NCBI RefSeq assembly: GCF_040267705.1
Contig: NZ_CP158374.1
Span: 1,240,001-1,304,000 of the forward strand
DNA length: 64,000 nucleotides
Reading direction: 5' to 3'
Source: Agromyces sp. G08B096
GTDB lineage: Bacteria > Actinomycetota > Actinomycetes > Actinomycetales > Microbacteriaceae
Under the pieces are notes generated by a model that saw only the letters and a program-made list of their open reading frames with translations, had not been told where the DNA came from and made no database searches. This document shows positions 50,736 to 54,253 of the stretch, one piece after another (positions within the stretch are counted from its first letter, which is position 1; every line of letters starts with the position of its first letter). The position numbers and the translations under genes were made by a program.

Positions 50736-52874
50736 TCAGCCGCTCGTCAGCACCGCCAGCCGCTCCGTGGCCCTCGTCATCGCGACGTACCGGTCGACGG
50801 CGCCTTCGATGCCGCCGCCGAACTGTTCGGGGTCGACGAGGACGACGAGGTCGAACTCGAGTCCCTTCGCGAGCACCGGCGTCAGCGACCGCACGCGGCC
50901 GGTCGGCGTGAACGACGCATCGCCGATGACGCAGGCGACGCCCTCGTCGTGGCCCGCCAACCAGTCGGCGAGGATCCGGTCGCGCTCGCCGAGGGAGCCG
51001 TGGTGCACGGGGATCCCGCTGCTGCGGATCGAGGTTGGGACGTTCGCATCGGGCAGCGCCCCGCGGATGACGGGCGCCGCCTCGGCCATCACCTCGCTCG
51101 GCGTTCGGTAGTTGATCGTGAGGGAGGCGATCTCGATGCGGTCGAGGCCCACGCGCTCGAGCCGCTCCTGCCACGACTCGGTGAAGCCGTGCCTCGCCTG
51201 GGCGCGGTCGCCGACGATGGTGAAGCTCCGCGACGGGCACCGGGCGAGCAGCATCTGCCACTCGGCGTCGGTGAGCTCTTGCGCCTCGTCGACGACGATG
51301 TGGGCGAACGGGCCGGCGAGCTGATCGGGGTCGACGGGCGCGAGCGTCGAGGCGTCGTCGAGCGAGTTGCGCGCGTCCTGACCGCGGAGGATCTGCATCA
51401 CGCCGAGCTCGGAGTCGTCGGTGCTGACGAGGTCGTCGATGACGCGGGTCATCCGTTCCCGTTCGGCGGCCCGTACCGCCTCGTCGCGATGCCGGCGACG
51501 CGTCGCCTCGGGGTCGCCGATCCGGCGGCGAGCGGCGTCGAGGAAGGGCAGATCCGCCGTCGTCCAGGCGCGCGCATCGCCGCGCTGCAGCAACCGCACC
51601 TCGTCGGGCGAGAGCCACGGCGCGCACCGCGCGAGGTAGGCGGGCGACGACCACAGGTCGGCGACGACGCCCACCGGATCGAGCAGCGGCCACGCCCGGT
51701 TGAACGCCGAGCGCAGGCCGTCGTCCTGCTGCAGCGCGCGGCGGAGGAGCGACTCGGGGACGTCCTCGTCGTGCTGGTCGACGATGATGCGCAGCAGCTC
51801 CTCCCACACCTCGTCTCTCGCATCGTTGTGCGGTGTGCCGCGTTCCGGCGCGTCGAAGGCCTCGGCCCAGTCGTCGGGGCCGAGATGCGCGTCGGCCCAC
51901 GGTGTCTCGACCGTCAGCCAGGCCGTCGGCGGGACCTCGTGGTAGCGCACCGCGGACTCCACCGCGTGCACCAGCCGCGCCCACGACTTCAGCGCCGCGA
52001 CCCGGTCGTCGGGTTCCGGCCCGGCCGCCGCGCCTTCGGGCACGAGGTGCCGCAGCGTGCACGTGGCCACGCCCTCCTCGCCGAGGCCGGGCAGCACTTC
52101 CGACACATAGTCGAGATACGGCTGGTGCGGACCCACGAAGAGCACGCCGCCGCGACGATGCCCGAGCCGCGGATCGGAGTAGAGCAGGTACGCCGTGCGG
52201 TGCAGGGCGACGACCGTCTTGCCGGTGCCCGGCCCGCCGTCGACGACGAGCGAGCCGCGGGAACCGGCGCGGATGATGGCGTCCTGGTCGGCCTGGATGG
52301 TGCTCAGCACATCGCGCATGCGGTCGGACCTGGTGCTCGCGAGGCTGGCGATGAACGCCGACTGGTCGTCGAGTGCGGCATGCCCCTCGAGACCGTCGGG
52401 GGTGAACACCTCGTCCCAGTAGTCGGTGATGCGTCCGTCGGTCCAGCGGTAGCGGCGGCGGCTCGCGAGGCCCATAGGGTCGGCGTGCGTCGCGCCGAAG
52501 TACGGCTCCGCGGCGGGGGAGCGCCAGTCGACGAGCAGCAGCTCGCCGTCCTCGTCGGTGAGCCCGATGCGGCCGATGTAGACCGGGCGGCCGTCGTCGG
52601 CGGCGACCATGCGGCCGAGGCACAGGTCGAGCCCGTAGCGGCGCAGCGTGCGGAGGCGCCCGGTGAGCCGGTGGATCTCGAGATCGCGCTCGAGGGCCGC
52701 CTGTCCGCCGCGCTCCGGCTGCCTGCGGACGGCGTCGAGACGGTCGGATGCCTCGGTGATGGACTGCTCGAGGCGGGCGGCGATGGCGGCGAAGTGCCGC
52801 TCATCGGCCTCGATGAGCAGCGGGTCGGACTTGGCGGCGAGTCGGTCGGGCAGGTCGAAGACGTAGATGGACAG
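50736..52874 (-). CDS. helR: RNA polymerase-recycling motor ATPase of the HelD/HelR family
   Basis: About 712 residues if started at CTG 52874, which has GAGGAG five bases upstream and gives LSIYVFDLPDRLAAKSD, the usual HelR beginning. ATG 52946 lies inside the predicted -10 and is rejected. Coiled-coil N-terminal arm (about 25-80), YIGRIGLTDEDGELLLVDWRSPAAEPYF, Walker A VDGGPGTGKTVVALHR, a long helical insertion (about 330-480), VVDEAQELTDAEWQML, VGDRAQARHGF, and AKGLEFDLVVLVDPE plus AMTRATERLAVL. These proteins clear stalled RNA polymerase, and HelR displaces rifamycins. A rifamycin-associated-element-like palindrome stands immediately upstream. Confidence 0.87.
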   Translation of the reverse strand: MSIYVFDLPDRLAAKSDPLLIEADERHFAAIAARLEQSITEASDRLDAVRRQPERGGQAALERDLEIHRLTGRLRTLRRYGLDLCLGRMVAADDGRPVYIGRIGLTDEDGELLLVDWRSPAAEPYFGATHADPMGLASRRRYRWTDGRITDYWDEVFTPDGLEGHAALDDQSAFIASLASTRSDRMRDVLSTIQADQDAIIRAGSRGSLVVDGGPGTGKTVVALHRTAYLLYSDPRLGHRRGGVLFVGPHQPYLDYVSEVLPGLGEEGVATCTLRHLVPEGAAAGPEPDDRVAALKSWARLVHAVESAVRYHEVPPTAWLTVETPWADAHLGPDDWAEAFDAPERGTPHNDARDEVWEELLRIIVDQHDEDVPESLLRRALQQDDGLRSAFNRAWPLLDPVGVVADLWSSPAYLARCAPWLSPDEVRLLQRGDARAWTTADLPFLDAARRRIGDPEATRRRHRDEAVRAAERERMTRVIDDLVSTDDSELGVMQILRGQDARNSLDDASTLAPVDPDQLAGPFAHIVVDEAQELTDAEWQMLLARCPSRSFTIVGDRAQARHGFTESWQERLERVGLDRIEIASLTINYRTPSEVMAEAAPVIRGALPDANVPTSIRSSGIPVHHGSLGERDRILADWLAGHDEGVACVIGDASFTPTGRVRSLTPVLAKGLEFDLVVLVDPEQFGGGIEGAVDRYVAMTRATERLAVLTSG

Positions 52875-52931
52875 CGCGGCTCCTCGGTCGTGTGACTGGG
52901 TCGGTGATCTCGGTGATCTGGCTGGGTGAAC

Positions 52932-52945
52932 TGGACGGCCGTCCA
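52932..52945 (-). promoter_or_regulatory. 14-bp perfect palindrome at the helR transcription start
   Basis: TGGACGGCCGTCCA, perfectly self-complementary, starts at the last base of the predicted helR -10 (CACAAT, 52950-52945) and covers the expected +1. A possible operator or initial-transcript hairpin. Confidence 0.5.
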
Positions 52946-52975
52946 TTGTGCGACGTCAGGGGGACCTTGCGGCAA
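52945..52975 (-). promoter_or_regulatory. Predicted helR promoter
   Basis: On the minus strand -35 TTGCCG (52975-52970), 19-bp spacer, -10 CACAAT (52950-52945). The -35 lies inside the RAE-like palindrome. Confidence 0.5.
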
Positions 52976-52983
52976 GGCCCCCC
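52959..52983. promoter_or_regulatory. Rifamycin-associated element (RAE)-like inverted repeat
   Basis: A 25-bp near-perfect palindrome: core CCTTGC-G-GCAAGG (52965-52977), flanked by five G on the left and five C on the right with a single A/C mismatch pair. From memory this matches the RAE found upstream of helR and rifamycin-inactivating genes in actinobacteria. It contains the -35 elements of both divergent promoters. Confidence 0.8.
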
Positions 52984-52995
52984 GTGCCCGATAAT
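52967..52995 (+). promoter_or_regulatory. Plus-strand promoter emerging from the RAE-like element
   Basis: -35 TTGCGG (52967-52972), 17-bp spacer, -10 GATAAT (52990-52995), predicted +1 near 53002; it reads toward the FMN reductase gene. Confidence 0.6.
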
Positions 52996-53003
52996 CTGAA
53001 AGT

Positions 53004-53022
53004 GGAGAGCTTCGTGCTCTCC
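53004..53022 (+). other. Hairpin at the 5' end of the RAE-driven plus-strand transcript
   Basis: GGAGAGC-TTCGT-GCTCTCC, perfect 7-bp stem starting about two bases from the predicted transcription start. No U-tract follows, so a 5'-stabilising or regulatory structure is more likely than a terminator. Confidence 0.5.
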
Positions 53023-53096
53023 ATTCGCATGTGCGGCTCGCAGGTGCGGCCGAGGTGGGCCCGTGCCACCCCCTTTCCGCTCGCGCGCGGCGGTCG

Positions 53097-53102
53097 TAGG
53101 GT
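53097..53102 (+). promoter_or_regulatory. -10 element of leaderless FMN reductase promoter
   Basis: TAGGGT, seven bases (GTCGCGC), then ATG 53110; a second promoter in addition to the RAE-linked one about 110 bp upstream. Confidence 0.55.
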
Positions 53103-53109
53103 GTCGCGC

Positions 53110-53679
53110 ATGAACGAGTATCGGGTGGGTTACTTCGTCGGGTCGCTGTCGGCGTCCTCCATCAACCGCGTGCTCTCGCAGGCGCTGATCCGGCTCGCGC
53201 CGGACGGGCTGGCGTTCACCGAGATCCCGATCGGCGATCTGCCGCTCTACAACCGCGACTTCGACGTCGACTACCCGCCCGAGGCGCGTGCGCTCAAGCA
53301 GCGCATCGCGGAGTCCGACGCGCTGCTCTTCGTCACTCCGGAGTACAACCGGTCGATCCCGGGCGCCCTGAAGAACGCGATCGACTGGGCGTCGCGGCCC
53401 TGGGGCACGAACTCGTTCGACCACGTGCCGGCGGCCGTGATCGGGGCGTCGCCGGGCGCGATCGGCACGGCGCTCGCCCAGCAGAGCCTGCGGTCGGTCC
53501 TGAGTTTCTGCAACGCCAGGCAGATGACGGCGCCCGAGGCGTACCTGACCTTCCGCGAGGGACTCTTCGAAGACGACGGCACGGTGACGGATGCCTCGAC
53601 CGAGGAGTTCCTGCGATCGTTCATGACCGAGTTCCGCGATCACATCGAGCGCGTGCTCACGGTGCTGCCGCGACGGTGA
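53110..53679 (+). CDS. NADPH-dependent FMN reductase (flavodoxin-like)
   Basis: 189 residues from ATG 53110. The flavin phosphate loop is GSLSASSINRVLSQAL near the N-terminus; TPEYNRSIPGALKNAIDW is the family's FMN-binding signature, and AAVIGASPGAIGTALAQQSLRSVL is also conserved. Reduces FMN, quinones or azo compounds with NADPH in the cytosol. It lies divergent from helR, and the RAE-like element and a plus-strand promoter sit in its upstream region, raising the possibility of rifamycin induction. The frame is open back to 52948 but that part lacks homology. Confidence 0.88.
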   Translation: MNEYRVGYFVGSLSASSINRVLSQALIRLAPDGLAFTEIPIGDLPLYNRDFDVDYPPEARALKQRIAESDALLFVTPEYNRSIPGALKNAIDWASRPWGTNSFDHVPAAVIGASPGAIGTALAQQSLRSVLSFCNARQMTAPEAYLTFREGLFEDDGTVTDASTEEFLRSFMTEFRDHIERVLTVLPRR

Positions 53680-53704
53680 GGATTCGGGGCGGGTGAGCGC
53701 GGCC

Positions 53705-53710
53705 TACGAT
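53705..53710 (+). promoter_or_regulatory. -10 element of leaderless ClbS/DfsB-like gene promoter
   Basis: TACGAT, six bases (GGCCGC), then ATG 53717. Confidence 0.6.
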
Positions 53711-53716
53711 GGCCGC

Positions 53717-54253
53717 ATGTCGACGCCGACCACCCGTGCCGCGCTCGAGGCCGCCGCCGTGCGCGGCTTCCGCGAACTCGATACCCGGATCGAGTCCATC
53801 CCCGAGCCGGCGCGTTCCGCGCCGTTCGCGCCCCGGGCCGAGCCATCCGCCTCGGCGCCGCCGCGCGACCGCGACCTGCAGGACGTCGTGAACCACCTGC
53901 ACGCGTGGCATCTGCTGCTGCTCGGCTGGCTCGACGCGGATGCCGCGGGAACCACGGTCGCCTACCCGGCCGAGGGGTTCACGTGGGACGCGCTCGAGGT
54001 GCTGAACCTCGAGCTCCGCGATCGCCACCGCATCGACTCCCGTCGCGCTGCCAGTGCGCTCGCGAAGGCGCGCGACCGGTTGCGTGCGAGCCACGTCGAC
54101 GTGCTCACCCGGCTCGAGGCGCTGAGCGACGCCGACCTGTTCGAGCCGGGGGGCCGGGCCTGGCTCGGCGGCCCGCTCGCCGAGCCGGTGCACGAATGCC
54201 TGGGCGGCCACTACGCGTGGGCCGTGGACGCGATCGAGGCGGCCCGCGCGTAG
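53717..54253 (+). CDS. ClbS/DfsB-like four-helix-bundle protein
   Basis: 178 residues from ATG 53717. Helical DinB-superfamily fold: RDLQDVVNHLHAWHLLLLGWLDAD, then FTWDALEVLNLELRDRHR and GGHYAWAVDAIEAAR at the end, characteristic of the ClbS/DfsB (DUF1706) family. Named members protect against colibactin or are implicated in stress tolerance, but no general activity is known. The His residues of DinB metal sites are only partly kept. Own leaderless-type promoter 26 bp after the FMN reductase stop. Confidence 0.75.
   Translation: MSTPTTRAALEAAAVRGFRELDTRIESIPEPARSAPFAPRAEPSASAPPRDRDLQDVVNHLHAWHLLLLGWLDADAAGTTVAYPAEGFTWDALEVLNLELRDRHRIDSRRAASALAKARDRLRASHVDVLTRLEALSDADLFEPGGRAWLGGPLAEPVHECLGGHYAWAVDAIEAARA

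Follow-up and report, generated by a model that had tools for sequence, protein, structure and literature searches.

The window, the 64-kb stretch of Agromyces sp. G08B096 DNA analysed here, carries helR (50736..52874, minus strand) and, facing away from it, an FMN reductase gene (53110..53679, plus strand). HelR matched the curated NCBIfam model NF041254 with 1232.5 bits, against a cut-off of 750. Its likely start codon is the CTG at 52874-52872, which lies behind GAGGAG; the ATG assigned by the ORF finder, at 52946, falls within the predicted -10 region. CTG initiation of helR seems to be common in Agromyces: CTG aligned as the start codon at 29 of 44 loci. For 24 of those 29 the upstream stretch examined contained no in-frame ATG, GTG or TTG, and 5 of the 24 had a GTG 12 nt downstream. 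In some genomes (G026, G030, G843) helR was found in pieces or with an internal stop, so the gene may sometimes be lost. The FMN reductase is a 189-residue protein that matched PF03358 (120.7 bits), and it is one of five PF03358 genes in this genome. Its best solved relative was PDB 3u7r (E = 7.4e-47), followed by 1rtt (a conserved hypothetical protein), chromate reductases and yieF, so that it resembles NAD(P)H-FMN quinone reductases of the FerB/ChrR/YieF type. The next gene downstream is a DUF1706 gene (53693..54253, plus strand).

An RAE lies between helR and the FMN reductase gene

Between these two genes lies a 25-bp palindrome (GGGGGACCTTGCGGCAAGGCCCCCC, 52959..52983) with two 12-nt arms that are 92% complementary and a 1-nt spacer, the G at 52971, which is its centre. 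GGNNCCTTGCNGCAAGGNNCC matched the window once, without mismatches (shuffled sequences averaged 0.55 matches at up to 3 mismatches), and CTTGCGGCAAG matched the 3.59-Mb genome once. A genome-wide search with GGGGNNCTTGCNGCAAGNNCCCC at up to 3 mismatches returned this site (0 mismatches) and one other place with 3; because the reversed control gave 5, only the exact match is informative. Core-pattern searches found no second such element in the genome, and Rfam gave no match at E values up to 1 across 52850-53200.

The RAE of helD/helR, arr, rox, rgt and rph is described as one palindrome that stands upstream of rifamycin-defence genes and overlaps the -35 of the gene-side promoter (PMC10719064). 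The palindrome in the window has this form (about 19 bp with GC-rich arms), adjoins helR, and overlaps the -35 of the helR promoter TTGCCG-N19-CACAAT. By position and form it is an RAE, and both the inverted repeat and its identity had been recognized correctly in a previous reading of the sequence alone (hereafter, the sequence-only reading). The CTTGCNGCAAG core was present within 260 nt upstream of helR in all 45 Agromyces helR loci, the window's own included, in 20 of 28 helR loci elsewhere in the family, in 29 of 30 in Microbacterium and in 9 of 11 further Microbacterium loci where helR lies beside an FMN reductase gene. Loci lacking a perfect core (8/28 in the family, 1/30 and 2/11 in Microbacterium) were omitted from further comparison; of these 11, the variant TTGTGGCAA/TTGCCACAA was present in 7, and 4 showed none of the forms sought.

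The palindrome is the predicted -35 region of two opposed promoters

On the minus strand, the -35-like hexamer TTGCCG (52970..52975) is followed after a 19-bp spacer by the -10 CACAAT (52945..52950), which occupies a conserved position +21..+26 from the palindrome centre. From this spacing, helR transcription is predicted to start at 52938, 7 nt after the -10. On the plus strand, the -35-like hexamer TTGCGG (52967..52972) is followed, likewise after 19 bp, by the -10 TAATCT (52992..52997), in the frame that is conserved in relatives. At the predicted +1 of this outward promoter begins a hairpin, GGAGAGC-UUCGU-GCUCUCC (53004..53022, plus strand), which is stable (-17.2 kcal/mol for 37 nt) and has no T-run behind it (the next bases are ATTCGCA). 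A generic sigma-70 promoter and terminator scan of 52700-53300, which admits only spacers of 16-18 bp, returned nothing.

These features suggest that the RAE likely acts as the common -35 region of two back-to-back promoters, one reading into helR and one outward. Since the predicted starts are 66 bp apart and the -35 region is common to both, RNA polymerase could probably occupy only one of them at a time. The sequence-only reading had placed the helR promoter exactly as given here. It had read the outward promoter as TTGCGG-N17-GATAAT (-10 at 52990-52995), and while those letters are present, the frame is not the conserved one, which lies 2 bases further on; among 160 helR RAEs, an outward NANNNT stood at +19 in 10 vs 158 at +21.

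Mirror-image -10 hexamers are general among actinobacterial RAEs

Requiring a core 20-220 nt upstream of a defence gene gave 229 distinct RAEs, 160 with helR, 36 with rox, 22 with an rgt-like gene, 6 with arr and 5 with rph; -10 hexamers played no role in their selection. Class labels were checked with one reference each, and those of rox, arr and rph scored above the curated cut-off. For rgt, the Rgt model was the best match but gave 408 bits against a cut-off of 800, and we thus use the label rgt-like. When NANNNT hexamers were plotted against distance from the palindrome centre, each side showed one sharp peak at +21 (hexamer +21..+26). On the gene side the hexamer was found in 160/160 helR, 35/36 rox, 22/22 rgt-like, 5/6 arr and 5/5 rph RAEs, and on the outward side in 158/160, 35/36, 21/22, 6/6 and 5/5, respectively. 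It was present outward in 225 of the 229 RAEs and on both sides in 223, while among nine look-alike TTGCNGCAA cores from these loci it was seen on 0 of 18 sides. The two divergent promoters that the sequence-only reading saw on one palindrome are therefore more general than it had claimed. A smaller outward peak at +27 (68 of 160 helR RAEs) stems from a conserved GAAAGT behind the -10.

An exact search for the complete 53-bp layout in its orientation gave matches in 182 of the 394 class genomes, and the reversed pattern was absent among the matches listed; the core with GGGG alone was found in 177 of 394. The named loci span 44 genus labels, some of them labels of metagenome-assembled genomes (MAGs), and among the matches listed 105 of 107 have the near NANNNT and 104 of 107 the far TANNNT. 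At least 120 pattern loci are named, and 13 of them do not appear among the 229 as named rows, either because no defence-gene start lies 20-220 nt away or because the site was already counted via another locus. Among these 13, by eye, a Luteibacter locus (L150) and one from a Micrarchaeota MAG (L186) lack both -10s at the offset, and a Saccharopolyspora locus (L084) has no -10 in frame. L119, a locus of Aerophototrophica crusticola, which is not an actinobacterium, was counted among the arr RAEs and fails on the gene side: its arr-like gene stands behind an RAE-like core that lacks a gene-side -10. Separately, four loci (L079, L094, L175, L190) carry RAEs with both -10s, by eye, and no match to a known defence gene in the stretch examined; they are possible further targets.

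An incidental promoter next to an ordinary operator would not be expected to look like this. If the RAE simply binds a regulator that responds to rifamycin and controls the single downstream gene, the outward hexamer should not stay in one frame, as it does in 225 of 229 RAEs, with a -10 type of its own, nor should the layout be shared by 182 of the 394 class genomes. The flanking C/G runs are nevertheless strongly conserved: the C-runs beside the core are kept to a degree that a -35 alone would not require, which suggests that a protein binds the palindrome, and two papers propose a factor on the palindrome (PMC10719064, PMC12802891). We regard such an operator as a possible but doubtful account of the RAE as a whole.

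The two sides of the RAE differ in -10 type and in hairpins

The gene-side -10 is mostly of a CAnAAT type (CAGAAT, CATACT, CACAAT); its first base is typically C or G, and T in 2 of 229 RAEs. The outward -10 is of a TANNNT type (TATCCT, TACGTT and similar), with T first in 219 of 229. TANNNT is the actinobacterial form of the -10. A stronger outward promoter is suggested by this form only, and mismatches to TATAAT do not favour the outward side: the outward mean was worse than the gene-side mean in four of five groups (2.33 vs 2.03 for helR, and likewise for rox, rgt-like and rph), while arr RAEs reversed the trend, with an outward -10 closer to TATAAT than the gene-side one.

Perfect stems of 7 bp or longer that begin 15-69 nt away from the palindrome centre were found on the outward side of 83 of 229 RAEs. 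Half of these (42 of 83) begin exactly at +33, as far beyond the -10 as a transcription start would lie; in 39 of the 42, the next 7 bases include at least 3 T. The gene side had such stems in 12 of 229 RAEs, 1 of them with T. A looser test (at least 6 pairs) gave 122 of 229 outward vs 51 of 229 on the gene side, while positions farther from the centre gave 59 and 60 of 228; by this test about half of the RAEs have no outward hairpin, including all 6 arr RAEs. A stem followed by at least 3 T occurs outward in 74 of 229. The outward hairpins of helR RAEs differ in sequence (65 distinct 5' arms among 80) and also in length. Where present, the hairpin would likely stop transcription from the outward promoter, so that the RNA would consist of its own terminator.

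The placement of these hairpins also bears on whether the outward block is a promoter at all. It could instead belong to a binding site that is asymmetric, or act as a terminator that guards against other transcription. Its promoter character is read from sequence, and in streptomycetes the block often reads TATANNTTG, which is longer than a bare -10. However, the NANNNT mirrors the position of the gene-side -10, 42 of the 83 perfect outward stems start exactly one promoter-to-start distance on, and in 10 Microbacterium loci described below the start of a gene is only 55-96 nt away from the centre, and one motif set found no other promoter motif there. We thus consider this explanation quite improbable. 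Hairpins that cluster at the outward +1 across 44 genus labels, among the matches listed, likewise speak against an incidental outward promoter beside an operator.

The FMN reductase of Agromyces sp. G08B096 probably has its own promoter

We asked what the outward promoter means for the gene that faces it. The sequence-only reading took it as a sign of a helR/FMN-reductase module. An outward -10 is standard across actinobacterial RAEs, with or without an FMN reductase gene, so its presence here is no such sign; and because the outward -10 is general to RAEs and about half of them have an outward hairpin, this promoter did not arise to serve the FMN reductase. Nor is the pairing conserved. Homologues of the FMN reductase (E = 1e-10 or better) were found in 19 of 59 other Agromyces genomes, of which G034 and G024 gave weak or partial matches, and by coordinates helR is adjacent to a homologue in none of the 59, so that a conserved module in Agromyces, the conservation that the sequence-only reading had suggested checking, was rejected. 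Across the family, coordinates read by eye placed the pair together in this genome only, among 199 sampled.

Furthermore, the RAE is not the only promoter-like element upstream of the gene. A predicted promoter, TTTCCG-N17-TAGGGT (53074..53102, plus strand), was identified by eye and resembles the elements of its closest orthologues, which have no RAE; it ends 7 nt before the ATG, a leaderless layout. The nearest homologues share a block CAACCC...CGTAGCGT that by eye resembles the window's CCACCCCC...CGTAGGGT, and of 18 Agromyces homologues the 6 nearest have TANNNT no further than 40 nt from the start (at -28 to -38, compared with -13 in the window); the other 12 have none in that range. Judging by these few relatives, the FMN reductase probably came with its own promoter. 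At 12 of 40 Agromyces helR loci, the outward side of the RAE leads to nitrilase, M36-like or DUF1706 homologues (the survey covers only about 1.4 kb at most loci), and in the window nitrilase, M36-like and DUF1706 genes sit just beyond the FMN reductase. This arrangement suggests an insertion, and the gene in Agromyces sp. G08B096 probably arrived by a separate one.

Direct co-induction of helR and the FMN reductase by the RAE, as one rifamycin module of this genome, is rather unlikely in our estimation. It would gain from the outward -10, which is present in the conserved frame, from the lack of a T-run behind the intervening hairpin, and from the recurrence of the pairing with another paralogue in Microbacterium, where 10 of 11 loci are compact. 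Against it, 139 bp and the stable hairpin lie between the RAE centre and the gene, the gene has promoter-like elements of its own, the adjacency is missing from the other 59 Agromyces genomes, and none of 18 Agromyces homologues with a usable start (17 genomes) has an RAE core within 200 bp upstream. In the window, the RAE would add to FMN reductase expression only read-through past a hairpin that lacks a T-run, and its control of this gene is uncertain.

A different FMN reductase is likely under RAE control in Microbacterium

In Microbacterium, where helR was found at E = 1e-150 or better in 105 of 247 genomes, an FMN reductase gene is divergently adjacent to helR in at least 11 of 247 (G657, G659, G665, G693, G739, G779, G790, G826, G838, G840, G858). 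G790 encodes, at the corresponding coordinates, a protein identical to one of M. sufflavum (L172), the basis for assigning these genomes to Microbacterium. The count of 11 is a lower bound, with 30 FMN reductase loci checked on DNA. In 10 of the 11, the outward TATCCT is intact and the start codon is 55-96 nt away from the centre of the RAE. The promoter motif of FMN reductase relatives was not found in these 10 with one motif set, and an outward hairpin was absent from all eight of the ten compact loci that entered the hairpin test; the two outside it (L283, L284) have an RAE core with one changed base. These observations suggest that in the compact loci the RAE likely controls the FMN reductase and co-expresses it with helR. 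The eleventh locus (L295 in G739) has a hairpin, a T-run and its own TATACC motif, with 150 nt from RAE to start, and is plausibly an intermediate toward capture by the RAE.

A tree placed the window's FMN reductase in a clade of 17 rows (support 100/98) and all 11 captured genes in another of 31 rows (100/99). With two separate clades, a single ancestral pairing is not favoured, and the pairing most likely arose at least twice. The proposal that one RAE serves both helR and a flavin reductase is likely for the compact loci of Microbacterium (10 of the 11, with another paralogue) and uncertain for the window, with its 139 bp, hairpin and predicted own promoter. By eye, at least 8 Microbacterium genomes (G675, G757, G807, G730, G777, G709, G727, G754) have FMN reductase and helR genes 3-10 kb apart and not adjacent. 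Because the two are already neighbours in this genus, juxtaposition is easier than genome-wide chance would suggest, which weakens an argument from chance.

Discussion

Actinobacterial RAEs carry mirror-image -10 hexamers at one fixed distance from the palindrome centre. We propose that the RAE is an orientation switch, the shared -35 of two promoters of which the outward arm is a sink that genes have captured in some lineages, and we give this reading a probability of roughly 55%. By default, polymerase would mostly be engaged outward and its transcription wasted. The sink would make a terminated RNA of about 25-40 nt, with a hairpin in about half of RAEs and a T-run behind it in about a third. 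Rifamycin, acting perhaps via a palindrome-binding factor or through the drug-hit polymerase itself, would then move polymerase to the resistance gene. Some lineages have placed a gene under the outward arm, as in Microbacterium, where an FMN reductase directly follows the outward -10 and is likely co-expressed from the RAE. Promoter function of both hexamers, mutual exclusion of polymerase and an outward RNA that ends in the hairpin are steps we infer from sequence. Points against the switch include the 19-bp spacers, the conserved C-runs beside the core, the poorer match of the outward -10 to TATAAT in most groups and the absence of an outward hairpin from about half of RAEs. A 19-bp spacer is long for the main sigma factor.

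Related arrangements are known outside the actinobacteria. The B. subtilis helD/pps alarm likewise has two opposed promoters at a rifampicin-response gene, and the one that does not serve the gene is thought to be dominant (PMC12802891). Those promoters are convergent, whereas the RAE promoters face apart and overlap at the -35, so that a polymerase leaving one promoter does not pass across its partner. When the two B. subtilis helD promoters were brought so near each other that their polymerases are mutually exclusive (del17), rifampicin induction was abolished (PMC12802891), which suggests that bare competition may not give induction. We consider unlikely a stricter form of the switch, in which the RAE is a regulator-free rifamycin sensor made of two exclusive promoters and an outward sink, the drug-hit polymerase alone shifts the balance, and genes that come to lie outward, as FMN reductases did at least twice, are a second output. 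Bidirectional promoters of E. coli also use pseudo-symmetric DNA on which RNA polymerase binds in one of two orientations, but the five studied share the -10 and start 10-23 bp apart, while the RAE shares the -35 and has predicted starts 66 bp apart; basal transcription from those five was too low for competition (PMC12825309), a second caution against competition alone.

The outward promoter appears to be an addition to the published picture of the RAE, which in the available text of PMC10719064 has two sense promoters in mycobacteria and no outward one. The available text of PMC12802891 does not contain the word "divergent", and that of PMC13162311 mentions neither the RAE nor HelR. The titles and abstract openings searched held no outward RAE promoter.

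Deleting half of the RAE together with the -35 is reported to abolish helD induction (PMC10719064), and our results add to the point made there, that a half-deletion which also removes the -35 cannot separate an operator effect from a promoter effect. The mode of rifamycin sensing via the RAE in actinobacteria is stated to be unknown (PMC12802891). An outward promoter that is conserved and that often carries its own hairpin would give RAE sensing a concrete and testable anatomy, and the outward side of every RAE is worth inspecting for more genes.
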